Origin: Alcanivorax sp.
GTDB lineage: Bacteria > Pseudomonadota > Gammaproteobacteria > Pseudomonadales > Alcanivoracaceae
Reading direction: 5' to 3'
Assembly: GCA_022565695.1 (NCBI GenBank)
Contig: JAIUME010000002.1
Coordinates: 186,001 to 250,000, forward strand
DNA: 64,000 bases
The notes under the pieces are model-generated. The model saw only the letters and a list, made by a program, of their open reading frames with translations, had not been told where the DNA came from and made no database searches. Numbering within the stretch: position 1 is the stretch's first letter; each line of letters starts with the position of its first letter. The translations under genes were made by a program, and so were the position numbers. Shown in pieces: positions 1-17,683 of the stretch.

Positions 1-2560
1 CAGGCAGCGCGCCGGAAATAAACAGCTTGTCCTTGTCCGGATCGCTGAAGTCAGCATCGGTGATAACACCGCCGGTCCCATCAATGATCAGTGTCGCGCC
101 ATTGCCCAGCGCTTCGAATTCACCTGCATCAAAGAAACCATTGCCATTGGTGTCAGTGAAAGGGCGCGTGCGTATGGTGGCAAATATGGTGCTGGTGGCC
201 GCCACCGCCTCGAAGTCGGCAATGATATTGGGCCCGCCGGGCGCGTTGATGCTGCCCAGAGGATCCGTGTTGACGGCAAGATTGCCGAAGTCAGGGTGAT
301 TGCGGAACGTATCCCCGCTGCCGTTGACGACGAGACGGTACATACCACCCTCGACAATCCGGCCTTCCTCGGGGAACAGTTGCGCAGCCATATTTTCGGC
401 ATGCAGTGTCAGGGGGATGTTTTGCCAGGTGCCGTCGATATTCTCGCCAATACAGATGGCGCCGCCGTTGCAGGCATTACCGGCTCCATTGATGGTACCG
501 GGCCGCATGCTCGCCGTGTCCATGGGCTGACTGAAATTGACATCCATGATGGTATCGATTTCGTACAGGAAGTTTTCGTACTGCACATCGGTGGGCAAGC
601 TGCTGACACAACGTCCCGCTTTACCGGGTTGGCTGCCCACAGCAGTCAGCGCGCAGCCCACACCCGGATAGACGTTCACCAGCATGGGCGGGACAAGCAC
701 GCCGTTATCACGGCTGTAGTCGGCGGTGGTGAAACTCAGCACGCCATCGCCACCCAGCGCGTCATCGGCACGAAATTCCAGGGGCAGGGGATTGAACAGG
801 TCTGCATCGGTAATCGAGGGCGGCAGGATCAGCTCATGCCGACTTGCGGGCTGCAGCTCATTCAGCGGCGTAACAACCAGCGTAGTGCCATCCCGATTGA
901 CCTTGATCGGCACCATTGCGCCGCCCTGATCCATATTCAGCAACATCACCTCATTCAGACCACGATGACTCAGCGTGTCGGATACCGTCAGCAGGATATT
1001 CTCCCGGGTTTCCACGCCGACATCGCCATCTTCGGGAAAACTGCCGGTTACGATCGGGCCTTCTGGATTCTGGGGGTCGACCACAAAAGCCAGGTCGCTG
1101 CGTACGCCTAGTGCGAAATCAGCGTTGATGGTTGAGGCACCACCGAGCACTTCGAACTGCAGTGTGGTGAACAGCTCGATGTTCAGCGTGCCTTCCGTAA
1201 TGGTGACAACACCCGGCGCCTGAACGTGCATGATATTCTGGTTGAAGGTGGCATTGCCGGCCGGGTCTTCGCCCTGCATGGACAGATCGAAGTTCATGAT
1301 CGCAATCAACGGCGCGACGTCATCGTCCGGGTTGGTGCCAACAGGTCTGTACGGATTCGGCAGCAGGTAGGCGGTGACATTATTGAAGAAGACGCCGGTG
1401 ATATTGCCGGTATTCAGATTCAGGTCCACTTCGCCGCCCAGTTTCGCGGGATTGATGCCGGTGAGGCGCAGTTTCTGGCCAGCCCGCGCAACAATGGGCG
1501 TTTCCACCGGGAACTTCACCGGATCAGCCAGCCACGCTTCCAGTGCGTCGGGAAAAGCATCGACCTCGTTCACACCCAGCACGTCGTTGACCAATCTGAA
1601 CTGGTTCAGCGTCAGGTCGCTCAAGCGTGAGTTCAGGGGAAAACCGGGATCACCCATGGAAGGGAAGGTCTGCAGTACTTGACGAATTGGTGGATTCTCG
1701 TCGCCCGGGTTTTCCTTTGAGTTCTCCGGCAGAAAACGATAGGTGATCGCGGCAAGCGGCTCGCTGCCCAGGTCCGTGATGGCATCTGTCAGACGCAGTT
1801 CGTACCGGGCGCCCGGCTCCATGTCTTCCAGCGGCTGCAGTGAAATATAATGGCGCTCAGTGTGCAGGCTCACATCGACCGGCTCTTCGTCGATGACGCT
1901 GCCGTCTTCCGCCAGGTTGACCTTGACGAAACTGAAGGTCTCGCCCAGTCGCACGGATTTCTGAGCCAGTGGTTCTGAGAAGGTCACCCTGATGGGCGCA
2001 AAATCCATGAACGGGAAGCGCGGGTCGCGGCCTGAACCGTCAAGGAAAGCCTCCGGGCTGTCCTGATTGATGGCCAGCACCCTGGGCGGCTGTCCGGGGA
2101 CAGGCGCGGACTGGCGAGTCCGAAAGGAGAGCAGGGGGCCCGTCTCGGGCAGATTCACAGCCCCCGGTGCGGCGGATTCCCTCAGCCAGACCTCATAGCG
2201 TGTGCCCTGGGCCAGGCGGTCGGTGGAAAACTGGATCGTCTTGCCGTCGTTGACGATCTCGGTCATGGCGGCAATGTCCACCGGGCCGTCTGGACCGACC
2301 AGGCAAAAACTCCCTTCAGGCACACCGTCGGTGCCGGCTGTACAGTTCTCGAGGGCTGCCGCAGGGTCCACCGGATTGGAGAATACAAACAGTGTCTTGG
2401 TGCCCAGCGGTACATCAACAGTACCGTCCAGAGGATAGGTGTAGATCAGCCCATCACCGATTTCGGGGGGCTGGAACGCCCGGCTGCTGTCTTCACAGGC
2501 TGCAAACAGAGCAAGGCTGGCGACAAGCGCCGCGCCCTGCAGTGAGCTTTTTATTCTCAT
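1..2560 (-). CDS. Large Ig-like-domain lipoprotein (5' part, runs off the left edge)
   Basis: About 853 residues are present and the reading frame is still open at the window edge, so the C-terminus is missing. The N-terminus is a lipoprotein signal: basic start MRIKSS, hydrophobic core and lipobox LFAAC, giving lipidation near Cys22. The body is repetitive beta-type sequence with SbsA/Big_5-like Ig motifs, for example YPLDGTVDVPLGTKTLF near residue 40 and PEDGDVGVETRENILL further on. Near the edge there is an acidic stretch, TDTNGNGFFDAGEFEALGNG, that looks like a calcium-binding loop. These features suggest an outer-membrane-anchored surface protein; no enzymatic motif is visible and the specific function is unknown. 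The ATG is the first in frame before the signal sequence. Longer plus-strand frames across this stretch are shadows. Confidence 0.85.
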   Translation of the reverse strand, partial: MRIKSSLQGAALVASLALFAACEDSSRAFQPPEIGDGLIYTYPLDGTVDVPLGTKTLFVFSNPVDPAAALENCTAGTDGVPEGSFCLVGPDGPVDIAAMTEIVNDGKTIQFSTDRLAQGTRYEVWLRESAAPGAVNLPETGPLLSFRTRQSAPVPGQPPRVLAINQDSPEAFLDGSGRDPRFPFMDFAPIRVTFSEPLAQKSVRLGETFSFVKVNLAEDGSVIDEEPVDVSLHTERHYISLQPLEDMEPGARYELRLTDAITDLGSEPLAAITYRFLPENSKENPGDENPPIRQVLQTFPSMGDPGFPLNSRLSDLTLNQFRLVNDVLGVNEVDAFPDALEAWLADPVKFPVETPIVARAGQKLRLTGINPAKLGGEVDLNLNTGNITGVFFNNVTAYLLPNPYRPVGTNPDDDVAPLIAIMNFDLSMQGEDPAGNATFNQNIMHVQAPGVVTITEGTLNIELFTTLQFEVLGGASTINADFALGVRSDLAFVVDPQNPEGPIVTGSFPEDGDVGVETRENILLTVSDTLSHRGLNEVMLLNMDQGGAMVPIKVNRDGTTLVVTPLNELQPASRHELILPPSITDADLFNPLPLEFRADDALGGDGVLSFTTADYSRDNGVLVPPMLVNVYPGVGCALTAVGSQPGKAGRCVSSLPTDVQYENFLYEIDTIMDVNFSQPMDTASMRPGTINGAGNACNGGAICIGENIDGTWQNIPLTLHAENMAAQLFPEEGRIVEGGMYRLVVNGSGDTFRNHPDFGNLAVNTDPLGSINAPGGPNIIADFEAVAATSTIFATIRTRPFTDTNGNGFFDAGEFEALGNGATLIIDGTGGVITDADFSDPDKDKLFISGALP

Positions 2561-2859: not shown

Positions 2860-2887
2860 ACTTCGTATAATATATATTATGTTAAAT
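2860..2887 (+). other. dif: Chromosome dimer resolution site dif (XerC/XerD target)
   Basis: The 28-mer matches the E. coli dif sequence at 23 of 28 positions. The XerD arm TTATGTTAAAT is identical, the central hexamer is TATATA instead of TGTATA, and the XerC arm ACTTCGTATAA differs at four positions, which is where species usually vary. It lies in a gene-free, AT-rich spot. KOPS-like octamers to the right point toward it (see findings), supporting a true terminus dif rather than a chance match. It is also partly loxP-like, because the two recombination sites share features. Confidence 0.85.
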
Positions 2888-2940: not shown

Positions 2941-3210
2941 TCAATCATATATCCGCCTTCGGTGGCCGACCTTCAGGACCAGCACCACCAACTTTTCGTC
3001 CTGAATCTCGCAGATTATCCGGTGGTCACCGACACGGTAACGCCAGTAGTCACCCAGTCGGGCGCCTTTCAAAGCCTTGCCAAAGGCCCTTGGGTTTGCC
3101 TGCTCAGCCACACGGCTGCGCAAGTAATCCCGTATCTGGCGGACTGTTGACGTGTCCAGCTTGCGCAGTTGCTTTGCAGCTTTCCTTTCAAACTCAATCG
3201 TCCAGGCCAA
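2941..3210 (-). CDS. RelE/ParE-family toxin (probable mRNA interferase)
   Basis: An 89-residue basic protein of typical RelE size, beginning AWTIEFERKAAKQLRKLD and ending with the family's VLKVGHRRRIYD. The GDYWRYRVGDHRIICEI core contains the conserved Arg residues of RelE enzymes that cleave mRNA in the ribosomal A site. The start appears to be TTG, inside the last codons of the antitoxin gene, giving a 17-nt overlap and implying translational coupling. A GGAAAG sequence lies just upstream. The partner antitoxin directly precedes it and a strong terminator follows. Family assignment is firm; the RelE (rather than ParE) mode of action is inferred from sequence similarity. Confidence 0.88.
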   Translation of the reverse strand: MAWTIEFERKAAKQLRKLDTSTVRQIRDYLRSRVAEQANPRAFGKALKGARLGDYWRYRVGDHRIICEIQDEKLVVLVLKVGHRRRIYD

Positions 3211-3421
3211 GGTCTTTCCACACCTCAGCTGCGCTCACAACGTCGGTCTTCCCTTCCCGCACTTCACGGGATACCCGCGCTGCATCGTAATAGTCTTCGA
3301 GGTCCTCTATCTGCTGCTCGATAGCCTCCCGGATGTAATATGCCTTTGTCCGCCCGGTGCGCCGGGCCAGCGCGTTAAGCCGTTGCTCCAGCTCTTCGGG
3401 CAGCCGTACTGATGTGGCCAT
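3194..3421 (-). CDS. Ribbon-helix-helix antitoxin
   Basis: A 75-residue protein. The N-terminal MATSVRLPEELEQRLNALA is a ribbon-helix-helix DNA-binding beta strand and first helix; the acidic C-terminal half (EDLEDYYDAARVSREVREGK) is the usual toxin-wrapping helix. It is the first gene of the two-gene operon, overlaps the toxin, and has a perfect inverted repeat just upstream, so autoregulation of the pair is likely. It resembles RelB/DinJ- and CopG-type antitoxins. Confidence 0.88.
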   Translation of the reverse strand: MATSVRLPEELEQRLNALARRTGRTKAYYIREAIEQQIEDLEDYYDAARVSREVREGKTDVVSAAEVWKDLGLDD

Positions 3422-3428
3422 GGTGCCT

Positions 3429-3480
3429 ACCCCTACAGGTGAATACTTGTATTCATTCTATCCGGCCCACCCCTACAGGT
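3429..3480. repeat. Pair of 12-bp direct repeats flanking the operator
   Basis: ACCCCTACAGGT occurs at 3429-3440 and again at 3469-3480, 40 bp apart, on either side of the GAATAC palindrome. The spacing is close to four helical turns. They may be extra operator elements or a small duplication. Confidence 0.6.
3440..3455. promoter_or_regulatory. Palindromic operator upstream of the toxin-antitoxin operon
   Basis: TGAATAC-TT-GTATTCA is a perfect 7-bp inverted repeat about 20 bp upstream of the antitoxin ATG. It overlaps the likely promoter and is a good candidate binding site for the ribbon-helix-helix antitoxin. Confidence 0.65.
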
Positions 3481-3503
3481 ACAGGGCGGTCAAGGCAGGC
3501 TTC

Positions 3504-4748
3504 TTACCAGGTCGGATCTTCTGCCTGCCGCCGAAAACGGGCCTCACGCACTGCCAGGTCGGCCGCGCTGGGGCCATCACCACGACGGTTGTTGCTGTCG
3601 GAACGGCTTGCCAGCCAGTCAGCGGATGGCGCCCACACGGATTTCAGGGCCTTGCTGCCCAGAATGACGCCCATATGGCCGCCAGGCACGATGTGGAACT
3701 CGCGATCCTTGCTGGAGACCAGCTCAACGCTGCGGCGGGCGATCTCCGGTGGCACCAGTATGTCGGTATCGCCGGCAAAAACGAGGAAGTTGGCTTCGAT
3801 CAGGCTCATGTCCGCCACGGTGCCGCGAAACTCCACCCGCCCCGCTGCCATCTGATTGTCGATGGCGAACTTGACCAGCATGTCCTGTACCACGCCGCCG
3901 GGGTACTCCAGCATGTTGTTGAGGTAGTCGGCGGTGGTCGAATAGTTCTCGACGAATTCCCGGTCCCACAGGCGTGTCAGCAGATCCCAGTAGGTGGTGA
4001 TACTGCCGATGGGGTCCGTCAGCTTGAATCCGAGGGTGGTCAGCCAGCCGGGCGCATGCAGCTTGCCCGGGTCAAGGCTGTGCAGGCGCCAGGCGCTGAA
4101 TTTGCGGATCAGGCGCGCCGGTGTGTTGAGCGCGGTAGCCGCCCGGGCCACCAGGCCGCCACCGCGCAAGTCTATGGGGCTGGCAACGGTAATCAGATTC
4201 TGGATGTGGTGATCGCGTTCCAGGCCTGTATGCAGCAGAGACAGGAGCCCGCCCATGCACCAGCCCATGACCGAGAGATCCTCGATGGCCGCGTGGCGCC
4301 GGACCTCTTCCAGGGCCGTGTCGAACATGGTCACGGCATAGTCCTTCATGCTCAGGTTGGCATGCCGGCGCTCCGGTTTGCCCCAGTCGATCAGGTAGAC
4401 ATGGAAACCCCGGGCCGCCATATAGCGCACCAGGCTGCGGTGCGGCATGAGATCGAACACTTCAGTCGTCACGCCCAGCGGCGGTACCAGTACCAGCGGC
4501 ACGGCATGGCGCTCGGCGGCCACAGGCACCCTCTCCCCGTCTGCCATCTCGATCCAGCTGTCCGAAGGTGGCGGGTAGTAGCGCACGGACATGGGGTCGC
4601 CCTGATACACAATATCGTAGGGAGTCATCCCGGATTTCACGAGGGACTCGCGCATCAGCATCCAGTCCACGGCGTTATCGGCAGTGGCCAGCAGGCGTTC
4701 ATTGATGAACAGCCCCCGGTCCAGGACGCGTTTGAACAGACGATTCAT
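3504..4748 (-). CDS. PhaC-like poly(3-hydroxyalkanoate) synthase / alpha-beta hydrolase
   Basis: About 414 residues with the class III PhaC fold. The lipase-like box is GWCMGG, with Cys in place of Ser as in PHA synthases. The other triad positions are visible as FAGDTDILVPPE (Asp) and GGHMGVILG (His), and the N-terminal half has YLIDWGKPE, typical of the family. PhaC would join hydroxyacyl-CoA units into polyester at the granule surface. There is no PhaE, PhaA, PhaB or phasin gene nearby, so it either works with partners encoded elsewhere or is an acyltransferase or hydrolase of the same family. I chose the ATG before NRLFKRVLD; about 35 codons of open frame upstream are unlikely to be translated. 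It diverges from the next hydrolase gene. Confidence 0.8.
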   Translation of the reverse strand: MNRLFKRVLDRGLFINERLLATADNAVDWMLMRESLVKSGMTPYDIVYQGDPMSVRYYPPPSDSWIEMADGERVPVAAERHAVPLVLVPPLGVTTEVFDLMPHRSLVRYMAARGFHVYLIDWGKPERRHANLSMKDYAVTMFDTALEEVRRHAAIEDLSVMGWCMGGLLSLLHTGLERDHHIQNLITVASPIDLRGGGLVARAATALNTPARLIRKFSAWRLHSLDPGKLHAPGWLTTLGFKLTDPIGSITTYWDLLTRLWDREFVENYSTTADYLNNMLEYPGGVVQDMLVKFAIDNQMAAGRVEFRGTVADMSLIEANFLVFAGDTDILVPPEIARRSVELVSSKDREFHIVPGGHMGVILGSKALKSVWAPSADWLASRSDSNNRRGDGPSAADLAVREARFRRQAEDPTW

Positions 4749-4883
4749 GGCAGTGTTCCCGGCTGATGCACTCTTGCGGCGCAGTCTACAATCATTCGCT
4801 ATAGTGGGTGGCTGGCCGCCGGGCCCGTTGGGGTGGCACCTGGGGTCAGCCAATAATCAATAATATGTATACAGGGAAAGTCT

Positions 4884-5861
4884 ATGTCATCACTGATCAA
4901 GTATCTGTCAGGTCTTGTTATCGCTCTGTTGCTGCTGGTCGCTGTGCTGCTGGGTGCCTGGTGGGCGCCGGATCAGCCGCCTGAAGCGCTGGCAGAGCGC
5001 TGGGCACAACCGCCCTCCTCTTTTGTGACCATTGACGGTATGCCGGTGCATTATCGGGATCAGGGGTCCCGTGATGCCGAACAGACGGTACTGTTGCTGC
5101 ATGGCACCTCGGCCAGCCTGCACACCTGGGAAGGCTGGGTGGCGGAAATGGGTGACGCCTATCGGGTGGTGTCTCTGGACCTGCCCGGCTTCGGATTGAC
5201 CGGGCCCTTCGTCAGCCACGACGATTACAGCATCGGCGCCTATACCACCTTTATGGGCCAGGCGATGGATGCGCTGGAGATCGAGCAGGCTGTTGTTGCC
5301 GGTAATTCGTTTGGCGGTGAAGTGGCCTGGGAGACGGCGCTGGCGATGCCGGAGCGGGTTTCAGCGTTGATTCTTGTGGATGCGGCGGGTTACCCGATCG
5401 AGTCCGTGTCAATGCCGCTTGGCTTCCGTATTGCCCAGACCCCGGCGCTCAGCAGCATCATGAACCGGGTCTTGCCGCGCAGTGTCATCGAATCCAGCGT
5501 GCGCAACGTTTACGGTGATCCGTCGCTGGTCACTGATGAGCTGGTGGACCGCTACTATGATCTGACCCTGCGTGAGGGTAACCGCGCAGCCTTGTCCGCC
5601 CGTTTCACTCATGCCGTCTGGCGTGATGAGTCCGGTGAGCGGTTGGCCACGCTGACACAGCCGACGCTGGTCATCTGGGGTGCTCAGGATCGTCTGATTC
5701 CGCCGGAGAACGGGCATCGCTTCGTGCAGGATATGCCGAATGCCGAGTTGGTCATGTTCGAGACGTTGGGACATGTGCCGCAGGAAGAGGATCCGCAGGC
5801 TACGGCGCAGGCAGCGCTTTCGTTCCTCGAACAGGCGTTCCCTGAAGAACTCAGGGAATAA
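4884..5861 (+). CDS. Membrane-anchored alpha/beta hydrolase
   Basis: 325 residues. One N-terminal transmembrane helix (about residues 6-28, LVIALLLLVAVLLGAWW) anchors a hydrolase domain facing the periplasm. The fold shows the oxyanion HGTSAS, nucleophile elbow GNSFGG, acid in GAQDRLIPP and the His in GHVPQEE. The sequence resembles bacterial meta-cleavage-type and esterase-like hydrolases, but the substrate cannot be named. It is transcribed divergently from the PhaC-like gene across 135 bp, and its stop overlaps the 3' end of the convergent stress-protein gene by 11 bp. Confidence 0.85.
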   Translation: MSSLIKYLSGLVIALLLLVAVLLGAWWAPDQPPEALAERWAQPPSSFVTIDGMPVHYRDQGSRDAEQTVLLLHGTSASLHTWEGWVAEMGDAYRVVSLDLPGFGLTGPFVSHDDYSIGAYTTFMGQAMDALEIEQAVVAGNSFGGEVAWETALAMPERVSALILVDAAGYPIESVSMPLGFRIAQTPALSSIMNRVLPRSVIESSVRNVYGDPSLVTDELVDRYYDLTLREGNRAALSARFTHAVWRDESGERLATLTQPTLVIWGAQDRLIPPENGHRFVQDMPNAELVMFETLGHVPQEEDPQATAQAALSFLEQAFPEELRE

Positions 5862-6738
5862 TCAGCATGTCGCCACTGACCTGGTGCAGCACTTTCTCCA
5901 GGGTTGTGGTGCGCCACAGCCCGGAGAGCCCGCTATAGGGCATGCTCCGCCCCATCACCAGAATGCCCGGCTGAGCCGGGTTTTCCATTTGCGCCGCCAG
6001 TGCCCGGGGCGGCGCACCTTCCAGAATCGCAAATGTGGGTGTGGCTGACAGGGTCGCCGCCAGGGCTTCCAGCCGCGCCTGGTGTTCTGCGGTCACTTCC
6101 GCCGCCGGGTCATTGCCACCGGGCAGCAGGTCGCCAAACTCTTCCTTGAGCCATTGCAGTGGCGGTATCACCGTGACCAGCGAGAGTGGCCAGCCGGTGG
6201 CGTCCGCCAGTTCCTCACCATGGTGGGCGATGGCCGCGCCTTGCAGGTTCTCATTGCCGGCGCCGGTATCAATGGCCACAAACACGGCCTGCGGACAGGG
6301 GCGTTCCGGATCCACCAGCCAGGCACAGAGGGTGTCGTTGAAGCGGAGAAAGCGGCGCAGATCGGTGGGAATCGGTGTGCCCGCAGGCCCGCGCTGCAAC
6401 AAGACGAGATCCATATCCTGTTGCATTGCGGTGTCGCGGATCAGCGTTGCTGCGTCGTCATCCAGCCAGGCCAGTTCGTAACGGGCTTCGCGGCCGCTGC
6501 TGCGTAGCTCTGCCACCAGCGTGTCCATGCCCCCCCGGGCTTGGGTCATGGCCCTGTGCCGCACCTGATGGCGCAGCTCTGGCGTCAGAAAGCGGTAGTC
6601 CATACCTGACAGGGGGCTGCGCACCGGCCGTAACAGCAACAGGCTGCTGGCCCCGTCCGCGCAACAGGCCAGTCGTGCCACAAGCTGGCGATCGGCGGCA
6701 TTGTCTCCGGTCATCACGGCCATGATCCGTTGGTACAC
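5851..6738 (-). CDS. Universal stress protein, tandem UspA-like domains
   Basis: 295 residues, the length of two Usp units. The start YQRIMAVMTGDN matches the first beta strand of UspA proteins, and the C-terminal half ends in GILVMGRSMPYSGLSGLW...DMLIIP, the nucleotide-loop region of the family, although the classic GxxGS is not exact. The start is GTG, supported by a strong AAGGAGT ribosome-binding site six bases upstream. It lies divergent from ccoN, and a perfect FNR/Anr half-pair stands between them, linking it to oxygen response. That site lies too close to the GTG for ordinary class II activation of this gene. Confidence 0.85.
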   Translation of the reverse strand: MYQRIMAVMTGDNAADRQLVARLACCADGASSLLLLRPVRSPLSGMDYRFLTPELRHQVRHRAMTQARGGMDTLVAELRSSGREARYELAWLDDDAATLIRDTAMQQDMDLVLLQRGPAGTPIPTDLRRFLRFNDTLCAWLVDPERPCPQAVFVAIDTGAGNENLQGAAIAHHGEELADATGWPLSLVTVIPPLQWLKEEFGDLLPGGNDPAAEVTAEHQARLEALAATLSATPTFAILEGAPPRALAAQMENPAQPGILVMGRSMPYSGLSGLWRTTTLEKVLHQVSGDMLIIP

Positions 6739-6753
6739 GTCTGACTCCTTATC

Positions 6754-6767
6754 TTGATCCTGATCAA
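6754..6767. promoter_or_regulatory. FNR/Anr box 1 (usp-ccoN intergenic region)
   Basis: TTGATCCTGATCAA is a perfect match to the FNR/Anr consensus TTGAT-N4-ATCAA. It lies 16 bp before the GTG of the stress-protein gene and 72 bp centre-to-centre upstream of box 2. Its position suits repression of the stress-protein gene or an upstream contribution to ccoN. Confidence 0.8.
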
Positions 6768-6825
6768 TAAAGCCGATGTTATCCCCATTGACCGCGCTGT
6801 GGCAGGGCTGCCCCCGTTACACAGC

Positions 6826-6867
6826 TTGATACAGGTCAAGGTTGTCCCCTCCCCCGCAGCGAGAATG
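6826..6867 (+). promoter_or_regulatory. FNR/Anr box 2 and predicted ccoN promoter
   Basis: TTGATACAGGTCAA (6826-6839) matches the Anr consensus in 9 of 10 positions. If it sits at -41.5, transcription would start near 6874, and the hexamer AGAATG/GAGAAT at 6861-6867 falls where the -10 should be. This is a normal class II FNR promoter geometry with a leader of about 33 nt to ccoN. Confidence 0.75.
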
Positions 6868-6906
6868 AGCGCGTCTTGCCTGTCACGCCAGTCTGGGGAT
6901 ACTGCC

Positions 6907-8358
6907 ATGCACGCTGCTACACCCTCACCCTACCATTACCGGGTAGTTCGACAATTCGCCATCATGACCATCGTGTGGGGCCTTGTCGGGATGTTTGTCG
7001 GCGTCTGGATCGCCGCACAGATGGCCTGGCCGGTACTCAATTTCGATCTGCCCTGGACCAGCTTCGGCCGGCTGCGGCCCTTGCACACCAACGCGGTGAT
7101 CTTCGCCTTTGGTGGCTCTGCCCTGATCGGCTCGTCCTATTACGTCGTCCAGCGCACCTGCGAAACGCCGCTGGCGTTCCCGCGACTGGCGGCGTTCACC
7201 TTCTGGGGCTGGACCTCGGTCATCGTGCTGGCCGCGATTACGTTGCCGCTTGGCCTGACTACCAGCAAGGAGTATGCCGAGCTGGAATGGCCGATCAATA
7301 TCCTGATTGCCGTGGTCTGGATCAGTTATGCGGTGGTCTTCTTTACCACCATCGCTCGACGCAAGACCTCCCATATCTATGTGGCCAACTGGTTCTACGG
7401 CGCCTTTATTCTCACCATCGCCCTGCTGCATGTGATCAACAACCTGGCGATCCCGGTGTCCATGTGGAATTCCTATTCCGTGTTCTCCGGGACCGTGGAT
7501 GCGATGGTCCAGTGGTGGTACGGCCACAACGCTGTCGGCTTTTTCCTGACCGCCGGTTTCCTGGCGATGATGTATTACTTTGTGCCGGTGCAGGCGCAGC
7601 GCCCGATCTATTCCTACCGCCTGTCCATCGTGCATTTCTGGTCGCTGATTGCGATCTACATGTGGGCCGGGCCGCACCATCTGCATTACAGCTCCTTGCC
7701 GGACTGGACGCAGTCCCTGGGCATGGTGTTCTCGATAGTCCTGCTGGCGCCCAGCTGGGGCGGCATGATCAATGGCGTCATGACACTGTCCGGCGCCTGG
7801 GACAAGCTGCGTACCGACCCGATCATCCGTTTCATGATTGTGGCGCTGGCGTTCTACGGCATGGCCACCTTTGAAGGGCCGATGATGTCCATCAAGACGG
7901 TGAACGCGCTGTCACACAACACAGACTGGACGGTGGCGCATGTGCATGCTGGCGCCCTGGGCTGGGTAGCCATGATCACCATGGGCGTCATGTATGTGCT
8001 GATCCCGCGGGTCTTCAACCGGCGTGCCATGTACAGCATCAACTGGATCTTCACCCACTTCTGGCTTTCCACGGTGGGCACGGTGTTGTACATCGCCTCC
8101 ATGTGGATCTCCGGTCTGATGCAAGGGCTGATGTGGCGTGCGGTGAATACCGACGGCACCCTCGCCTACTCGTTCATCCAGGAAATGGAATATCGCTTCC
8201 CCTACTACGTCGTGCGCCTGATTGGCGGTGTGATCTTCTTCGCCGGCATGGTGCTGATGGCCTGGAACGTGTGGAAGACAATACGCGACACAAACAACGA
8301 TGAGGGGGCGGACAACCGCCTGGACAGCGATGCCGAAGCACTGCCGGGAGGAGCGTAA
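6907..8358 (+). CDS. ccoN: cbb3-type cytochrome c oxidase subunit I (CcoN)
   Basis: 483 residues, the usual length. It is the catalytic haem-copper subunit that reduces oxygen to water with high affinity and pumps protons across the inner membrane. The haem b and b3/CuB histidines are visible in [44 protein letters not shown] and [16 protein letters not shown], and the protein has about twelve hydrophobic helices. I start it at the ATG before [13 protein letters not shown], preceded by a GGGGA site; the 51 codons of open frame before that cross the promoter and are not coding. It is the first gene of the Anr-controlled ccoNOQP operon. Confidence 0.97.
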
Positions 8359-8360
8359 TC

Positions 8361-8996
8361 ATGGCCGGTTCTGCACACGAGAAAGTCGAAAAGAATGTCG
8401 GGCTGCTGATTGCACTGGTGCTGGTTGCCGTCAGCTTTGGTGGCCTGGCGGAAATCGTTCCGCTGCTCTGGGATGACGACACCACGCAACCGGTCAAGGG
8501 CCTGAAGCCCTACACCGCACTGGAACTGGAAGGCCGGGATGTCTATATCCGCGAAGGCTGTCATGTCTGTCACACCCAGATGGTGCGGCCACTGCGCGCC
8601 GAGACCGAGCGCTATGGCCCCTACTCCGTCGCGGGCGAAGACGTCTGGGAGCACCCGTTCCTGTGGGGTTCCAAACGCACCGGGCCTGACCTCGCCCGTG
8701 TCGGTGGACGCTACTCGGATGACTGGCATCGGGATCACCTGTACGCGCCCCGCGATCTGGTGCCGGAATCCAATATGCCGGCCTATCCCTGGCTGCGATA
8801 TCGCACGGTCAACTGGCGGCATACGGAACGCAAACTGAATGCCCTGCGCATGTTGGGTGTGCCCTACAGCGAAGAGGATATTGCCGAGCAGCTTCAGCGT
8901 GTTGCAGCGGACTGGGCAGACAAGACTGAGGAAGATGCGCTGGTGGCCTACCTGCAGCAGCTGGGCACCGTTATGACCGGGAGGGGCGCGCAATGA
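8361..8996 (+). CDS. ccoO: cbb3-type cytochrome c oxidase subunit II, monohaem cytochrome c (CcoO)
   Basis: 211 residues. One N-terminal membrane helix (about residues 13-36) anchors a periplasmic c-type haem domain; CHVCH at residues 67-71 is the haem attachment site and Met in [10 protein letters not shown] is the probable axial ligand. It passes electrons from CcoP or soluble cytochrome c toward CcoN. It starts two bases after ccoN stops and overlaps ccoQ by four bases (ATGA), as expected for one translated operon. Confidence 0.97.
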
Positions 8997-9169
8997 CACT
9001 GATCAATTATCACATCGTGCTGACGGTCTTGCTGGTGATGGCCTTTGCGGCCATGACGGTCTGGGTGTTCTGGCCGTCGCGTCGCACGCAGTACCAGCAG
9101 ATCGCGCAGCGCATCCTGAATGATTCTCTGGACGAGAAGACCACTGAGGAGCGCAAGGGCGATGAGTAA
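8993..9169 (+). CDS. ccoQ: cbb3-type oxidase small subunit (CcoQ/FixQ)
   Basis: A 58-residue protein found by reading the sequence between ccoO and ccoP. It has one hydrophobic helix, [20 protein letters not shown], followed by the WPSRR turn and a charged tail ending in EERKGDE, the standard CcoQ layout. CcoQ stabilises the assembled oxidase, notably against oxygen damage. Its ATG overlaps the ccoO stop and its stop lies inside the start of ccoP, so the four genes are tightly coupled. Confidence 0.93.
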
Positions 9170-10061
9170 TTTCTGGAGCGGTTACATCATTGTGCTGGTG
9201 CTGCTGAACCTGCTGGGGTGTGCGGTGTTGCTGTTCTGGAACAGCCGTATGAGCGCCGAGGAGGCCAAGCGTCGTACCACTGGCCATGTGTTCGACGGCA
9301 TCGAAGAACTCAACGAGCCCCTGCCCCGCTGGTGGCTCTGGCTGTTCGTCGGCACGCTGATATTTTCAGCCGCCTATCTGGCGTTGTACCCCGGCATGGG
9401 CAAGTACGCCGGTATGCTCGGCTGGACCTCTCAGGGGCAATGGGAAGACGAAGTCGCGTTTGTCGAACGTCAGACAGCGCCCCTGTTTGCCGAGTACGCC
9501 AAAGTGCCGGTGGAAGAACTGTACCAATACCCGGAAGTGCGTGAAGTCGGTGCGCGGCTCTATATGCAGAACTGCGCCATGTGCCATGGCTCGGATGCAC
9601 GCGGTGCGCGGGGTTACCCGAACCTGACTGACGGCGCCTGGCAATGGGGCGGCAGCCCCGAGGCCATCCGGCACTCGATCGCCAAGGGGCGCGAAGCCAA
9701 CATGCCCGCGCTGGCCGCAGCGCTGGGTGAAGAAGGTACAACAGACATGGCCTGGTATGTGGCGAGCCTCAGCCGCAAGGAACTGGCCGAACGCGAGGAT
9801 GTCGCCGAGCGCATAGCGCGTGCCGCACCACGGTTTGCCATGTGTTCGGCATGCCATGGCGCCGACGGTACCGGTAACCCCATGTTTGGTGGCCCCGACC
9901 TGACCGACGGCAAATGGTTATACGGCAGCCGCATTGCGGATATCGAGCAAACCTTGCGTCAGGGCCGCATGGGCGTGATGCCCGCGCATGAAAATATTCT
10001 CTCTGCTGAGCGAATCCATGTGCTGACCGCTTATATCTATGGGCTTCGTATAGATGAGTAA
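9162..10061 (+). CDS. ccoP: cbb3-type cytochrome c oxidase subunit III, dihaem cytochrome c (CcoP)
   Basis: 299 residues. Two membrane helices (about 7-27 and 57-77) are followed by two cytochrome c domains with haem sites CAMCH at residues 138-142 and CSACH at 228-232. CcoP is the electron entry subunit. I use the ATG before SNFWSGYI, which overlaps the end of ccoQ by eight bases; an upstream start would add 14 residues from another frame context. A six-base gap leads to ccoG. Confidence 0.97.
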   Translation: MSNFWSGYIIVLVLLNLLGCAVLLFWNSRMSAEEAKRRTTGHVFDGIEELNEPLPRWWLWLFVGTLIFSAAYLALYPGMGKYAGMLGWTSQGQWEDEVAFVERQTAPLFAEYAKVPVEELYQYPEVREVGARLYMQNCAMCHGSDARGARGYPNLTDGAWQWGGSPEAIRHSIAKGREANMPALAAALGEEGTTDMAWYVASLSRKELAEREDVAERIARAAPRFAMCSACHGADGTGNPMFGGPDLTDGKWLYGSRIADIEQTLRQGRMGVMPAHENILSAERIHVLTAYIYGLRIDE

Positions 10062-10067
10062 TCTGAT

Positions 10068-11477
10068 ATGAACGATCCGCGCATCCCGATGCAGGAAGAT
10101 CCCGAGTGGATCAGCCTCTACAGCAAACGCGACGCGATTCATCCGCGTGCGGTGCACGGCCGCTTTCAGCAGCTGCGGGATGTGACGGTCTGGGCCACAC
10201 TGGGCGGCTATCTGTTGCTGCCCTGGCTGCAATGGCCCGACGGAGATGGCGGCTGGCGCCAGGCAGTGCTGTTCGATCTGCCCGGCCGGCAGTTCCATAT
10301 CTTTGGCGTGACCTTCTGGCCACAGGATTTCATTCTGCTGTCCTGGTTACTGATCTCGCTGGCGTTTGCGCTGTTTCTGGTGACGGTACTGGCTGGCCGT
10401 GTCTATTGCGGCTATGTGTGCCCGCAAACCACCTGGACCCGTTTTTTTACCTGGATTGAAAAAATCACAGAGGGCGACCGCCATGCGCGAATCCGCCTGG
10501 ACAAGTCCCCCTGGCACCGCAAGAAAATCCTGCGGCGTGGCAGCAAACATATCCTCTGGTGGATGCTGGCCTCGCTGACCGGGATTACCTTCGTTGGCTA
10601 CTTTACGCCCATTGGTGACCTGTTATTGCGCGCATTCACCTGGGAGCTGGGCCAGTGGGAAATCATCTGGATTGCGTTCTTTACCGGCGCCACCTACGTC
10701 AACGCTGGCTGGTTGCGGGAGCAGGTCTGCATCTACATGTGCCCCTACGCCCGTTTTCAAAGTGTGATGTTTGATCGCAACACCTTGATTGTCTCCTACG
10801 ACACAGAGCGCGGCGAGCCCCGCAAGCGTGGTCGGCGCAAGGAAGAAGAAAGCGGCATTGGCGACTGCATTGATTGCGAGCTGTGTGTGCAGGTGTGCCC
10901 GACCGGCATCGATATTCGCGAAGGCCTGCAGTACGAGTGCATCGGCTGTGCGGCCTGTGTGGATGCCTGCGATGCGGTCATGAAGCAGGTGGATCTGCCC
11001 GTCGGGCTGATCCGTTATACCACCGAAAATGCATTGCAGGGCCGCCCCACAGACTGGTTCCGGCCGAGACTGCTGTCCTATGGCGCAATGCTCCTGATCA
11101 TGGTGAGTGTGCTGGGGTATGCCCTGGCAACACGGGTGCCGCTGGGCATTGATGTGATGCGTGACCGTGGTCAGCTCTACCGCACAGCCAGCGACGGCAT
11201 GATCGAAAACAGTTACCAGCTGGTAGTGATGAATCGCAGTCAACAGACCCGCGATATCCGGCTGTCGCTACAGGCCGCAGACGGCCTGCACTGGCAGCAT
11301 GGCGAGCAGCAGATACAGCTGCCTGCCGGTGCAACACGCACCCTGCCCATCACTCTGGCTTACGACCCCTATACCGATCAGGTCAGTACCGGACCTGTAT
11401 GGTTCATTCTGGAGGACCAGCACAATGTCAGATATCGGCTCCGTCGAGAATCCCGGTTTATCGCCCCTGCGCACTGA
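10068..11477 (+). CDS. ccoG: Cytochrome c oxidase accessory protein CcoG (RdxA/FixG)
   Basis: 469 residues: several membrane helices, a polyferredoxin-like region and a C-terminal periplasmic Ig-like domain. Iron-sulphur cysteines are seen in CIDCELCVQVCP and CIGCAACVDACD, and further conserved cysteines in YCGYVCPQTTW and CIYMCPYARFQ. CcoG is known as a membrane cupric reductase needed to supply copper to the CuB centre of cbb3 oxidase. The last 53 bases overlap ccoH in another frame. Confidence 0.96.
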   Translation: MNDPRIPMQEDPEWISLYSKRDAIHPRAVHGRFQQLRDVTVWATLGGYLLLPWLQWPDGDGGWRQAVLFDLPGRQFHIFGVTFWPQDFILLSWLLISLAFALFLVTVLAGRVYCGYVCPQTTWTRFFTWIEKITEGDRHARIRLDKSPWHRKKILRRGSKHILWWMLASLTGITFVGYFTPIGDLLLRAFTWELGQWEIIWIAFFTGATYVNAGWLREQVCIYMCPYARFQSVMFDRNTLIVSYDTERGEPRKRGRRKEEESGIGDCIDCELCVQVCPTGIDIREGLQYECIGCAACVDACDAVMKQVDLPVGLIRYTTENALQGRPTDWFRPRLLSYGAMLLIMVSVLGYALATRVPLGIDVMRDRGQLYRTASDGMIENSYQLVVMNRSQQTRDIRLSLQAADGLHWQHGEQQIQLPAGATRTLPITLAYDPYTDQVSTGPVWFILEDQHNVRYRLRRESRFIAPAH

Positions 11478-11949
11478 CACGCAGCCGTGGTATCGCTACC
11501 GGTTTGTCTGGCTGATCATCGGCATTCTCGCCTGGTCTGTGGTGACAGGGCTGACCTTGCTGGTGGTGGCCGTGCTGAATGCGGACGATGTGGTCAGTGA
11601 TACCTGGTATCGCGATGGCCGCGGCGTTAACCGGGATATTGCCGCAGATAACATGGCCATTGCACTGGGTGTCCGCGTTGTGGCCGAGGGCAGCACGCTG
11701 CAGCTGAGCAGCGACGTGGCGCTGCCCATGCCGCAGGCGCTGGAACTGGCGTTGCGCCACCCGACCATTGCCGCCCGTGATCAGTTGCTCGGGTTCGTTC
11801 ACCAGGGCGACGGGTTCTATATCTCCGACACGGCATTGCCAGCCGGGCGTTGGGCGGTAACGCTGACGCCGTCAGAGGGCAACTGGCGCTTTCATCGGCA
11901 ACAGGTTCTCGGTGCCGAGCCCGTACTGATACTGGGGCCTGATGCATGA
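11425..11949 (+). CDS. ccoH: cbb3 oxidase assembly protein CcoH (FixH family)
   Basis: 174 residues with one membrane helix (about 30-52, FVWLIIGILAWSVVTGLTLLVV) and a periplasmic beta domain, the FixH pattern. CcoH is an assembly factor that stays associated with the oxidase. I start at the ATG before SDIGSVEN because a GGAGGA site lies eight bases upstream; this start is inside ccoG, giving an unusually long 53-nt overlap. Its stop overlaps the ccoI start (ATGA). Confidence 0.9.
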   Translation: MSDIGSVENPGLSPLRTDTQPWYRYRFVWLIIGILAWSVVTGLTLLVVAVLNADDVVSDTWYRDGRGVNRDIAADNMAIALGVRVVAEGSTLQLSSDVALPMPQALELALRHPTIAARDQLLGFVHQGDGFYISDTALPAGRWAVTLTPSEGNWRFHRQQVLGAEPVLILGPDA

Positions 11950-14372
11950 ATGCGCCGGGCACGCTCTTCCGGGCCGACAGTCCCTGCTGGCATTGCGGCA
12001 CTCCCGTGGGCAACCAGCCGGTGCTGGCAAAAACACCGGAGGGCGTGCAGCCAGCCTGTTGCCATGGTTGCGCGGCCGCCATCGAGGGCATCCATCAGCT
12101 GGGTCTGGGTGACTATTACCGTTTTCGTACCGATGCCGGGCGTCCGCCGGATGCCGAGGCACAGGATGATCAGGCACTGGCGCCCTTTACCGTGCCGGAG
12201 CTGCTCGCAGGATTCACCGATACCCGGGAAAACGGCCAGACGCAGCTGACGCTCCGCATCGAAGGGCTGCATTGCGCGGCCTGTGTATGGCTGATCGAGC
12301 ATGGCCTTACCGCCCTGCCCGGTGTCGAGGCTGTGCGCCTGAATCTGGCCAGCGCCCGCCTGACCGTGACCTATGACGCCGGGACCGTCACGCCGCTGAT
12401 GCTGGCGCGGCGTTTGCGACAGCTGGGTTACCGTGCCTGCCTGCCAACCCGGGAAGGCCGCGTGCTGCAAGCCCGCACGGCCTATCGCCAGATGCTGCGG
12501 CGGTTACTGGTGGCCGGGCTGTGCAGCATGCAGGCCATGATGTATTCCACCGCGCTTTATGTCGGCACGTTCGATGACGTCGAGGCGGTGTATGCGCAGC
12601 TGTTCCGCCTGACCAGTTTCATTGTGGCGACACCGGCGATTTTCTACAGCGGCTGGCCGTTCTTCAGTGGCGCCTGGTATGCCCTGCGCGCCCGCACCCT
12701 GACCATGGACGTGCCGGTGGCGCTGGCGCTGGGCCTTGCCTGGACCGGCTCCGTGGTAGCCCTGGTGCGCGGCGTCGGGCATATCTATTTCGAATCCCTG
12801 GCCATGTTTGTGTTCTTCCTGCTGATCAGCCGCTGGCTGGAGCAGCGCCAGAAGCTGCGTTCAGCCGAAGCGCACAGCCAGCTTTCTGACAGCCTGCCCG
12901 CCGTGGCCCGGCGGCAATCCGCAGAAGAACAGGATGCCTGGCAGATGATTGCCAGCCACCTGATCAATGCCGGTGATTGCTTGCGAGTCCAGCAAGGCGA
13001 ATTGATCCCGGTGGATGCCATCGTGACCCGTGGCGAGGCGCTGGTGGAAGAAGCCCTGCTCACGGGCGAAGCGGTGCCGGTAAAACGCGCTGCCGGTGCC
13101 TCAGTGCTGGCTGGTGCAAAAGTCGTGGAGGGCGATCTGATCCTGCAGGCACAAAGCGGTGCACGGGACAGCATGGTGGCGCGGCTGGGGCAGCTGCTGG
13201 ACATCAGCGAAGCGGAAGAGTCGCGTTTGCATCTTTATGCGCGCGGTATCGTGCCCTGGTTTATTGCTGCCGTGCTCGGCCTGGCCGCCTTTACCCTCTG
13301 GTGGCACCGGGATGCCGGCCTGGATCTGGGCCTGCAATATGCCCTCGCCGTGCTGGTGGTGACCTGCCCCTGCGCACTGGCACTGGCCGCACCACTGGCG
13401 GTCAGCGCAGCGCGCAGCCGGGCGCTGGCAGAGGGCGTGCTGATTGCCCGGCCAATGCAACTGCTGGCGCTGGCCACTGTGGATCGCGCTGTGTTCGACA
13501 AGACCGGCACCCTCACCGAGGGGCGTTTCAGTGTGCAGGCGGTGCGCCAGCTGGACGATCACTGGCCTGAAGAAACGCTTCTGGCCGTGGCCGCCGGGCT
13601 GGAACAGCACGCCAGTCACCCGCTGGCCAGAGCCATCGCCACGCTGGCGGAGCCGGCACAAGTGGGTGGTTTCGCCCAGGCACGCCAGGGGGTCACCGGT
13701 TCGGCCCATGGCGCGCAATGGGCATTGCATGCGGCACCGGAACATCTCCTCAGCGAGCAGGATCCGGTTGGTACCGTTGTGGCCCTGTTCCAGCTGGATG
13801 CCGGTGCTACCGAAAAGCCGGTCATGCTGTTTTTCCTGGCGGATAGCCTGCGCGCCGATGCCGTTGACGCTCTGCAGTTACTGCGTGAGCAAGGCATGAC
13901 ATCGATGCTGGCATCCGGCGACCGGGATACCACCGTACAGCAACTGGCCGCCCGGCTGCCGCTCAGTGAGGCGCGGGGTGATCAAACGCCAGAACAGAAG
14001 CTGGCCTGGATCATCGGCCTGCAACAGCAAGGCCATCGCGTGCTGATGACCGGCGACGGTATCAATGATGCGCGGGGTCTGGCGGCCGCCGACTGTGCCA
14101 TCGCCATGGCGGACAGCAGCGCATTGGCGCGGGACGCGGCCGGCATTTATCTGCTGCGCCAATCGCTACTCGCCCTGCCCTGGTTGCAACGATTGTCCCG
14201 GGCAACCCACCGCACACTGCGCGTCAATATTGGCTGGGCGCTGGGCTACAACCTGCTGGCCATCCCCTTCGCGGTGGCCGGGTTGATCCCGCCGTGGCTG
14301 GCCGCCATCGGCATGTCTGCCAGCTCGTTGCTGGTGTCCTGGAATGCAGGGCGGCTCCGGTCATGGAAATAG
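11946..14372 (+). CDS. ccoI: Copper-exporting P-type ATPase for cbb3 assembly (CcoI/FixI)
   Basis: 808 residues. The N-terminus carries two cysteine clusters (CWHCGTPV and CCHGCAAAIE) and a heavy-metal domain with GLHCAACVW. The membrane copper site is TCPCALALAAP, the phosphorylation motif is DKTGTLTEGRF, and GDGINDARGL is the hinge motif. In the FixI/CopA2 group this pump moves Cu(I) to the periplasm for insertion into cbb3 oxidase rather than for detoxification; the operon position supports that role. Confidence 0.96.
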   Translation: MNAPGTLFRADSPCWHCGTPVGNQPVLAKTPEGVQPACCHGCAAAIEGIHQLGLGDYYRFRTDAGRPPDAEAQDDQALAPFTVPELLAGFTDTRENGQTQLTLRIEGLHCAACVWLIEHGLTALPGVEAVRLNLASARLTVTYDAGTVTPLMLARRLRQLGYRACLPTREGRVLQARTAYRQMLRRLLVAGLCSMQAMMYSTALYVGTFDDVEAVYAQLFRLTSFIVATPAIFYSGWPFFSGAWYALRARTLTMDVPVALALGLAWTGSVVALVRGVGHIYFESLAMFVFFLLISRWLEQRQKLRSAEAHSQLSDSLPAVARRQSAEEQDAWQMIASHLINAGDCLRVQQGELIPVDAIVTRGEALVEEALLTGEAVPVKRAAGASVLAGAKVVEGDLILQAQSGARDSMVARLGQLLDISEAEESRLHLYARGIVPWFIAAVLGLAAFTLWWHRDAGLDLGLQYALAVLVVTCPCALALAAPLAVSAARSRALAEGVLIARPMQLLALATVDRAVFDKTGTLTEGRFSVQAVRQLDDHWPEETLLAVAAGLEQHASHPLARAIATLAEPAQVGGFAQARQGVTGSAHGAQWALHAAPEHLLSEQDPVGTVVALFQLDAGATEKPVMLFFLADSLRADAVDALQLLREQGMTSMLASGDRDTTVQQLAARLPLSEARGDQTPEQKLAWIIGLQQQGHRVLMTGDGINDARGLAAADCAIAMADSSALARDAAGIYLLRQSLLALPWLQRLSRATHRTLRVNIGWALGYNLLAIPFAVAGLIPPWLAAIGMSASSLLVSWNAGRLRSWK

Positions 14373-14376
14373 TGTT

Positions 14377-14583
14377 ATGGAAATAGTCATTCTGCTTATT
14401 CCCCTGGCCCTGATCGTGCTGGGCCTGGCCATCGCGGCCTTTTTCTGGGCTGTCAGCCGGGACCAATTTGACGATCTGGATTCGCCAGCATGGCGCGTGC
14501 TGTTTGATGACCGGACACCGCCGAAGCCGACCCAGGCTGGCAAGAGTGACAAGACTGACAAGGAACCCGCCGACGATGAGTGA
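14377..14583 (+). CDS. ccoS: cbb3-type oxidase assembly protein CcoS
   Basis: 68 residues: one membrane helix (MEIVILLIPLALIVLGLAIA), then FFWAVSRDQFDDLDSPAWRV, the signature of the CcoS/FixS family, and a charged tail. CcoS is needed to mature the haem and copper centres of CcoN. I use the ATG four bases after ccoI; an alternative ATG 33 bases upstream lies inside ccoI. The last eight bases overlap the next gene. Confidence 0.94.
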   Translation: MEIVILLIPLALIVLGLAIAAFFWAVSRDQFDDLDSPAWRVLFDDRTPPKPTQAGKSDKTDKEPADDE

Positions 14584-15322
14584 CGGAGTGCTGTTTGCCA
14601 GCATGGTGCTGATGGCCTTTGCAGGCAGTGTGCATTGCATCGCCATGTGTGGCGGCATGGCCATGGCCGCGACCTTTGCTGTGCCGGAAGGCCAGCGTCA
14701 GGGGCCGGCCCTGTGGCATTGGCAGGTGCTGTTCGGCTGCGGTCGAGTGATCACTTATATGCTGCTGGGGGCCATCATGGGTGGGCTCGGCGCGGTGATG
14801 TCCCTGCCACCCGCCTTGCAGGGCGCGCCGCTGCTGGTTTCCGCAGTGATCATGGTGTTGCTGGCCCTGTATCTGGTCGGCCGCACGGCAGGCATCCAGC
14901 TTGTCGAAAGACTGGGCGCACACCTCTGGCGACGTGTGAGCCCCGCACTGCGCAAGCTGATGCCCGTCACCAGCCCGGCCCGTGCGCTGGCACTGGGTAT
15001 GGGCTGGGGGCTGCTGCCCTGCGGTCTGGTGTATGCCGCGCTGGCGTTGGCCGTGGGCGCAGCCTCCCCCCTGACGGGCGCCGCACTGATGCTGGTATTC
15101 GGCGCGGTCACAGTGCCGCCGGTGGCGGCAGCGGGTGTCATTGGGGGCTCAATGGCCGCATTGAGAGGCCCGCGTGGTCGTCGGGTCGCGGCGCTGCTGG
15201 CACTGATCATGGCCGGTCTGCTGATCTGGCAGGTCCTGGCGGGTGGCCACGATCATGCCGGTCACGATCACACAGGCCACGGCCATCAACACCACGCGGA
15301 CCCACACCAGCATCATCATTGA
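14576..15322 (+). CDS. TauE/SafE-DsbD-like membrane protein with His-rich tail
   Basis: 248 residues with about six hydrophobic helices. The first helix holds SVHCIAMCGGMAM, the hallmark of the UreH/TauE-like DsbD_2 family often found directly after ccoS. The last 25 or so residues are extremely rich in His with Asp and Gly (a HDH/GHDH pattern), which suggests metal binding. Family members here are usually labelled sulphite exporter or metal transporter; the position at the end of a copper-assembly operon makes copper handling more likely, but this is an inference. Its stop codon overlaps the FNR/Anr box of hemN. Confidence 0.85.
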   Translation: MSDGVLFASMVLMAFAGSVHCIAMCGGMAMAATFAVPEGQRQGPALWHWQVLFGCGRVITYMLLGAIMGGLGAVMSLPPALQGAPLLVSAVIMVLLALYLVGRTAGIQLVERLGAHLWRRVSPALRKLMPVTSPARALALGMGWGLLPCGLVYAALALAVGAASPLTGAALMLVFGAVTVPPVAAAGVIGGSMAALRGPRGRRVAALLALIMAGLLIWQVLAGGHDHAGHDHTGHGHQHHADPHQHHH

Positions 15323-15359
15323 CGCATATCAAGGCAGACTTTGCTCGCCCCGGCATGAT
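15319..15359 (+). promoter_or_regulatory. FNR/Anr box and predicted promoter of hemN
   Basis: TTGACGCATATCAA (15319-15332) matches TTGAY-N4-ATCAA. With the box at -41.5 the start would be near 15367, and CATGAT at 15354-15359 occupies the -10 position. The box begins inside the last codons of the upstream gene. Confidence 0.75.
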
Positions 15360-15418
15360 GGCGACTTTATCACCTGTTGGTCATTACCGGCCTGGGAAAC
15401 GACGTTGACGGAGGCGCC

Positions 15419-16795
15419 ATGAGCGAATGGAATACGGATCTGATTCGTCGTTACGACGGCAAGGGGCCACGATATACCTCCTACCCGCCCGCCCTCGCCT
15501 TTCATGAAGAAATCAGCGAGACGGACTATCGTGATGCCATAGACGAAGGCAACGCGGCACGGCGCCCGCTGTCCCTGTACAGCCACATTCCGTTTTGTCA
15601 GTCGGTCTGCTACTACTGCGCCTGCAACCGTATTGTGACCGCCAATCGTCAGCGTGGCGCCGAGTATCTGGATGATCTGCTCAGCGAAATGCGCTATCGG
15701 GCCGCCACCCTGGACGGCCAGCGTCCGGTCACCCAATTGCACTGGGGTGGTGGCACCCCAACCTTTCTGGATGACGGCCAACTGACCCGGCTGATGCATC
15801 ACACCGGGCGGCTGTTCCGGCTTCTGGAGGATGACCGGGGCGATTATGGCATTGAGCTGGACCCGCGCACCGTGGACCGGGCAAGGATCGGTCTGCTGCG
15901 CGGGCTGGGCTTCAACCGGGCCAGTCTTGGCGTGCAGGACCTTGATCCCCGGGTGCAACAGGCGGTAAACCGCGTGCAATCCCTGGGATTGATCAGCGAC
16001 ACCATGGCAGCACTGCGTGAGTTCGAGTTCCATTCCGTCAGTGTGGATCTGATCTATGGCCTGCCCTGGCAGTCGGAATCCAGCCTGGCGCGCACCGTGG
16101 AGCAGCTGGTGGCGCTGAACCCGGACCGGGTGTCCCTGTACAACTATGCGCACCTGCCGGCGCGCTTCAAGGTACAGAAACAGATCGAGGAGGCCGCCCT
16201 GCCCGCGCCCTCGGAAAAACTGCGCATGCTGGCCCGCGCCGGCTCACTGTTCGAGCAGGCTGGCTATCAGTTGATCGGCATGGACCATTTCGCTCGCCCC
16301 CATGACGCACTGGCGCAGGCCCAGCAGGCGGGACGCCTGCATCGCAACTTTCAGGGCTATTCGCTGCATGGCGATGCGGACCTGCTGGGTATGGGGGTCT
16401 CCGCCATCAGCCAGATCGGCGGTCTCTATGCCCAGAACTTCAAGCAGCATGATCGCTGGCAGGCATCCGTGCAGGCCGGTGAGCTGCCCATGGAGCGCGG
16501 ATTCCTGCTCAATCGGGATGACCTGATCCGCCGTGATGTCATCATGACATTACTGTGCGATATGGCGCTGGACTATGCCGCTCTGGGCGAGAAATGGTCG
16601 GTACCGATACCGGCCTACTTCGCCCGGGAACTCATGGCGCTGGAGCCCATGGAGCAGGATGGGCTGCTCCAGCGGCATGCCGACAGGCTTGTCATCACCG
16701 AGCGTGGGCGCCTGTTTGCCCGGGCTGTTGCCATGTGTTTTGACCTGTATTCCGGCCAGGCGCCGGAACAACATCGTTACAGCCGCATCATCTGA
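15419..16795 (+). CDS. hemN: Oxygen-independent coproporphyrinogen III oxidase
   Basis: 458 residues, the normal HemN length. HemN is a radical SAM enzyme of haem synthesis that works without oxygen. The cluster motif is in HIPFCQSVCYYCACNRI (CxxxCxxC plus the following Cys), preceded by the family's GPRYTSYPPA and followed by LHWGGGTPTFL. GLGFNRASLGVQD and the HemN C-terminal domain are also present. I chose the ATG before SEWNTDLIRRYDG. An FNR/Anr box precedes it, so it would be induced at low oxygen together with the haem-rich oxidase. Confidence 0.97.
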   Translation: MSEWNTDLIRRYDGKGPRYTSYPPALAFHEEISETDYRDAIDEGNAARRPLSLYSHIPFCQSVCYYCACNRIVTANRQRGAEYLDDLLSEMRYRAATLDGQRPVTQLHWGGGTPTFLDDGQLTRLMHHTGRLFRLLEDDRGDYGIELDPRTVDRARIGLLRGLGFNRASLGVQDLDPRVQQAVNRVQSLGLISDTMAALREFEFHSVSVDLIYGLPWQSESSLARTVEQLVALNPDRVSLYNYAHLPARFKVQKQIEEAALPAPSEKLRMLARAGSLFEQAGYQLIGMDHFARPHDALAQAQQAGRLHRNFQGYSLHGDADLLGMGVSAISQIGGLYAQNFKQHDRWQASVQAGELPMERGFLLNRDDLIRRDVIMTLLCDMALDYAALGEKWSVPIPAYFARELMALEPMEQDGLLQRHADRLVITERGRLFARAVAMCFDLYSGQAPEQHRYSRII

Positions 16796-16949
16796 GTCAG
16801 GCTGCCCTGACAAGGTGCATTGCGCGTGAAGGAGGTTTAGAGTGTCAGTACGTCTGGTGGTGTCACGGCAGTGCGATGAACAGCATGAAAAGCGCTGCGC
16901 TGGCAGTAAGAACCACGGAAAAAAGAACCACTTGGAAAGAGTAGACGCA

Positions 16950-17669
16950 ATGACCGCTCGAGTGTCCTGTAACGATTGCTCCCTGAGCCCCATCTGCTTG
17001 CCGCTGGCTGTGCGTGCGGATGAACTGGAACAGCTCGATAACATCATTCGTCGCGGGCGCGCCATGAAACGTGGCGAGCACCTGTACCGCGCAGCGGATA
17101 CCTTCGATGCGGTGTATGCGGTGCGCAGTGGCGCCCTGAAGACCTATTCCGTGTCAGAAGAAGGCGAAGAACAGGTCACCGGCTTTTATCTGCCCGGGGA
17201 AATCGTCGGTATGGATGGCATCAGTACGGCCCGTCATGTGTCCTCGGCCAAGGCGCTTGAGACGGCCAGTGTTTGCGAGATCCCTTTTGATCGCCTCGAG
17301 TTTCTGTCCTCGCGTATCCCCAGCCTGCAACATCATTTTTTCAGCCTGATGAGTCGGGAGATCCAGGCGGATCGTGAGCTGCATCTGCTGGTCAGCAAGA
17401 AATCCGCGGATGACCGCATTGCCGCCCTGCTGATCTCGATCTCGGCACGCCACAAGCTGCGCGGTTTGTCCGCGACAACGTTCCGTTTGCCAATGTCTCG
17501 CTATGACATTGCCAACTATCTTGGCCTGGCGGTGGAAACCGTGAGCCGTACCTTTACCCGCTTCCAGCAACAGCATATCTTGCGTGTTGAAGGCCGCGAG
17601 GTCGAAATTCTTGATCGCGGCGCACTGTGTGGTGCTGCGCCGCGGGAAATACTTCAGCAGCCCTGCTGA
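16950..17669 (+). CDS. anr: FNR/Anr-type oxygen-sensing transcription regulator
   Basis: 239 residues. The [4Fe-4S] ligands C7-x2-C10-x5-C16 and C109 keep the spacing of E. coli FNR (C20, C23, C29, C122). A cyclic-nucleotide-type beta barrel follows, then a dimer helix and the helix-turn-helix MSRYDIANYLGLAVETVSRT, whose E..SR residues read the TTGAT half-site. Without oxygen the cluster holds the protein as an active dimer. The ATG chosen follows a GGAAAGAG site; upstream in-frame codons back to 16842 are not FNR-like. It lies beside its probable targets and 14 bases before a stress-protein gene. Confidence 0.96.
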   Translation: MTARVSCNDCSLSPICLPLAVRADELEQLDNIIRRGRAMKRGEHLYRAADTFDAVYAVRSGALKTYSVSEEGEEQVTGFYLPGEIVGMDGISTARHVSSAKALETASVCEIPFDRLEFLSSRIPSLQHHFFSLMSREIQADRELHLLVSKKSADDRIAALLISISARHKLRGLSATTFRLPMSRYDIANYLGLAVETVSRTFTRFQQQHILRVEGREVEILDRGALCGAAPREILQQPC

Positions 17670-17683
17670 CCGGTGGAGAAACC

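Follow-up and report, generated by a model that had tools for sequence, protein, structure and literature searches.

A unique chromosomal dif site with convergent KOPS in Alcanivorax sp. and its apparent in-place flips within the genus

The dif site, a standard feature of bacteria, is where duplicated circular chromosomes come apart ahead of cell division. Chromosome dimer resolution is well studied in E. coli and Vibrio, where FtsK reads KOPS, moves to dif and activates XerD, after which XerC completes strand exchange and dimers are resolved (PMC5357621). Proteobacterial dif sites (Carnoy & Roten 2009, PMC2731167; Kono et al. 2011, PMC3025954) are non-coding, lie near the GC-skew shift and have the XerD arm as their best conserved part, and position 2 of the centre is its most variable base (PMC2731167). 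The site described here shares all these traits and differs from the sites of these surveys in nothing of substance, i.e. the present genome is one more case. Its likeness to the E. coli dif/XerCD/FtsK-KOPS system extends to the 28-bp layout of 11, 6 and 11 bp, the exact XerD arm, the convergent GGGNAGGG motifs and the presence of two Xer recombinases and an FtsK gamma domain. E. coli dif differs at four positions of the XerC arm and one position of the centre (TATATA here, TGTATA in E. coli).

The window, i.e. the whole stretch of 64,000 nucleotides that was analysed (G000:C2:186001-250000), belongs to an assembly of 3,528,247 bases in 22 contigs that is 99.92% complete. Positions 2860-2887 read ACTTCGTATAATATATATTATGTTAAAT and comprise an 11-bp XerC arm, a 6-bp centre and an 11-bp conserved XerD arm (Table 1). 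The 28-mer is intergenic, with a minus-strand gene (~1-2560) upstream and a relBE-like pair (2941-3421) on the other side. Re-alignment to E. coli dif gave 23/28 identical bases and an exact XerD arm, so that the preliminary description, which had given this match at these coordinates, was correct on these points; the runner-up among independent 28-mers in the window has 17 matches. The XerC arm ACTTCGTATAA equals the consensus of the 120 dif sequences that we aligned.

Table 1. Features of the dif region; positions are those of the window
Feature	Position	Strand	Remark
dif XerC-binding arm ACTTCGTATAA	2860..2870	+	position in alignment to E. coli dif
dif central hexamer TATATA	2871..2876	+	from sequence; perfect palindrome, TGTATA in E. 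coli
dif XerD-binding arm TTATGTTAAAT	2877..2887	+	exact E. coli match; found nowhere else in the 3.53-Mb genome
KOPS GGGCAGGG left of dif	782..789	+	points toward dif; the window has no other KOPS on this side
19 KOPS (CCCTNCCC on + strand) right of dif	3251..53201	-	pointing toward dif; starts 3251, 6847, 9319, 11341, 12313, 14173, 16197, 21544, 21734, 21739, 27502, 36375, 37051, 38816, 41592, 42406, 45456, 51153, 53194
Opposed KOPS right of dif	19113	points right	only one in the window
relBE/parDE-type toxin-antitoxin pair	2941..3421	-	neighbour, not part of dif function
Toxin, ParE/RelE-like	2941-3210	-	PF05016
Antitoxin, RelB-like	3194-3421	-	NF048017

The site is present in a single copy in the 22-contig assembly. 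A pattern search of all 3.53 Mb found the XerD arm TTATGTTAAAT once and no other site within three mismatches of the 24-base dif core CGYATAATNTATATTATGTTAAAT, and 200 mononucleotide shuffles of the window contained no match to the XerD arm. On a PWM whose score is descriptive, as it was built from 120 dif sites that were found with related patterns and include the present one, dif reaches 57.3 of a possible 59.8, whereas the best other independent site on the 347-kb contig C2 scores -10.8. Thus, a better dif elsewhere, which the preliminary description had named as an argument against its reading, was found neither by the genome-wide pattern search nor by the PWM scan of contig C2.

The KOPS of both arms converge on the site. 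On contig C2 (346,597 bases read) GGGNAGGG occurs 47 times forward and 3 times reverse over the 189 kb left of dif, and 2 times forward and 33 times reverse right of it (p = 2e-18); equal numbers in both directions on the left, a second counter-argument that had been raised in advance, are therefore not seen. The best changepoint on the contig falls in the interval from -2095 to +374 bp relative to dif, i.e. the polarity switches within 2.5 kb of the site, and in four congeners (G001, G002, G005 and G006) the changepoint likewise brackets dif and is located to 3-8 kb. Within 50 kb of dif, KOPS in these five genomes agree with the polarity at a ratio of 139:7, as compared to 44:13 for the reversed control motif GGGANGGG (KOPS vs control p = 3e-4) and 153:93 for the G-rich control motif GGANNGGG (p = 6e-15), so that strand composition does not account for the full polarity of KOPS. 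Right of dif in the window, 19 KOPS point leftward and one rightward (binomial p 4e-5); the list drawn up earlier had contained only real CCCTNCCC positions and the correct single opposed motif at 19113, but had missed five (3251, 9319, 11341, 21544 and 45456).

An intergenic and locally AT-rich position is also where a palindrome might arise by chance. The comparative data refute such an exceedingly improbable origin, as the 24-mer core, allowing up to two mismatches, is conserved in 49 of 57 genomes (the present one and its relatives) and the KOPS changepoint lies at the site in five genomes; moreover, an 11-base arm that is unique in 3.53 Mb speaks against chance. All but one of the 49 carriers have one copy of the core per genome. 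More widely, 89 contig stretches from GTDB species contain the 27-mer core CTTCGTATAATRTATATTATGTTAAAT, with R at one position; nearly all of the carriers are Proteobacteria, and gamma- and beta-proteobacteria predominate among the 80 loci listed.

Some of these genomes show irregular arrangements of their own. A relative from the same order (G042) contains two dif-like sites in the same orientation, 12.9 kb apart (C81:16985-17008 and 29854-29877), the arrangement that insertion of an element at dif would be expected to produce. In a contig of the Bathymodiolus japonicus methanotrophic symbiont (L042) two opposed sites, 2038-2064 (-) and 4234-4260 (+), are 2.2 kb apart, which may reflect either integration of a dif module or an artefact of the assembly. 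In two contigs of the Methylotenera MAG D2_Bin_10 (L070, 100-126, minus strand; L089, 2-28, plus strand), dif lies close to an end of the stretch retrieved, as if the assembly was broken at a dif repeat, and a proteobacterial dif on a contig binned as Mollicutes (L044) probably reflects misbinning.

The genome also encodes the proteins that such a site requires. A PF00589 search returned two tyrosine recombinases, one XerD-like on C8 and one XerC-like on C1, and a single FtsK with a gamma domain is encoded on C2. The gene following the C8 recombinase resembles a thiol-disulfide protein, which we take to be the one commonly located 3' of xerD. Hence, the chromosomal dif proposed in the preliminary description is borne out by a unique site, a KOPS switch next to it and the presence of XerC, XerD and FtsK-gamma, and positions 2860-2887 almost certainly constitute a functional chromosomal dif site, if XerCD and FtsK act as in E. 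coli and Vibrio. Binding, activation and dimer resolution, which we infer from these two systems, would then proceed as follows: XerC would bind the left and XerD the right arm, FtsK would load at KOPS during division and the convergent KOPS would drive it toward dif along both arms, where its gamma domain would activate XerD and XerC would complete strand exchange; recombination between the two dif copies of a dimeric chromosome would then resolve the dimer. In none of its features does the present dif depart from the E. coli/Vibrio model.

The relBE-type pair, located ~53 bp from dif on the XerD side, is missing from the same gap in the sister genomes G002 and G005, and toxin-antitoxin genes are discussed as dif-module content in two papers on Acinetobacter (PMC6449649, PMC13141974). 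Both points would suit a site that serves for attachment of an integrated element exploiting Xer (IMEX), or that belongs to a plasmid-type pdif module, with relBE as cargo. We regard this as very improbable. It requires a second dif-like site, and there is none near relBE or on the contig (the best PWM score near relBE is -36 vs 57 for dif), leaving Xer-mediated insertion of the pair unsupported; furthermore, dif occupies the same gap in the sister species, which have no relBE there, and the KOPS switch falls exactly at the site. An IMEX or pdif origin is thus largely refuted. Upstream of the antitoxin gene lie 16-bp direct repeats, GCCTACCCCTACAGGT and GCCCACCCCTACAGGT (3425 and 3465), which may be its operator. 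A related relBE pair is found in a gammaproteobacterial MAG (L076, 2926-4049), where it lies ~0.65 kb from that genome's own dif in the same relative orientation and encodes a toxin with 56% identity to the one in the window.

The preliminary description had further equated the start of the window with the replication terminus, which holds to within ~20 kb, but the cumulative GC-skew maximum lies 15.7 kb right of dif (~0.4% of the genome) and not at dif itself. Raw skew is about zero for ~40 kb right of dif. When skew at four-fold sites was split by gene strand, on gene calls from a simple longest-ORF rule, the replication component in the present genome had one sign in the 0-20 kb bin and the opposite sign in the 20-40 kb bin, and in five genomes the corrected sign change lies within about 20-40 kb of dif. 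Much of the offset and of the flat raw skew is gene-strand bias. Displacement of termination from dif, which the 40-kb plateau might suggest, was considered and dismissed, as the plateau is mostly removed by this strand-split analysis. Dif and the skew shift agree loosely in general, as they do here (Kono et al. 2011, PMC3025954). At the other end of the replichores, contig C1 carries dnaA (C1:369 kb), with DnaA boxes close by, and also the cumulative-skew minimum (C1:349.5 kb, in the stretch C1:200-440 kb that was read), which places the origin on a contig other than that of dif.

All in all, this is an ordinary, textbook dif site. What is mildly unusual is only that some close relatives have dif flipped in place against the adjacent genes. 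In a blastn comparison of window positions 2301-3700 with G005, the flanks 2303-2695 and 3504-3700 are colinear and plus/plus, whereas the best match of the dif segment (2854-2888) is on the minus strand, so that the reversal is confined to dif, between two genes that are the same in both genomes. In a comparison of the window with G005 and 23 other relatives, genes on both sides of dif served as markers, in particular the arm that carries the oxidase genes (window position 6754 on) and what follows. In G000, G002 and G001 the XerD side of dif faces this arm, and all other genomes whose synteny is informative have the arm on the XerC side (G003-G007, G009, G010, G013, G014, G016, G018, G021, G025, G029, G031, G033 and G035, as well as G017, judged by the opposite arm). 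In a concatenated-protein tree, a single tree of terminus genes with missing data, G001 is placed outside the other congeners and adjoins the outgroup genera, which makes two independent flips the simplest count. Apparently, dif was flipped once in the ancestor of G000 and G002 and once in the G001 lineage. The palindromic TATATA centre was considered as the cause of flipping and rejected, as G001 is also flipped and has the non-palindromic centre TGTATA.

KOPS converge on dif in both flip states. Evolution probably leaves dif free to take either orientation between the two chromosome arms, as it was apparently reversed in place twice independently while KOPS convergence was kept. In E. coli experiments, the polarity of the sequence flanking dif reportedly matters for its activity (work of Perals et al. 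in 2000), and a free direction of dif itself would fit this effect. A search of titles and abstracts in the open-licence literature returned no paper on natural dif inversion, which is weak evidence of absence.

For the organism, the site fixes the terminus of the chromosome, and the genes rightward of 2888 can be read as one replichore, from terminus to origin. For the genus, the dif flips in close relatives constitute a small natural experiment on the sequence polarity that dimer resolution needs, and, if the orientation of dif is indeed free, they would be a natural confirmation that selection maintains the polarity of the arms and not the direction of dif.
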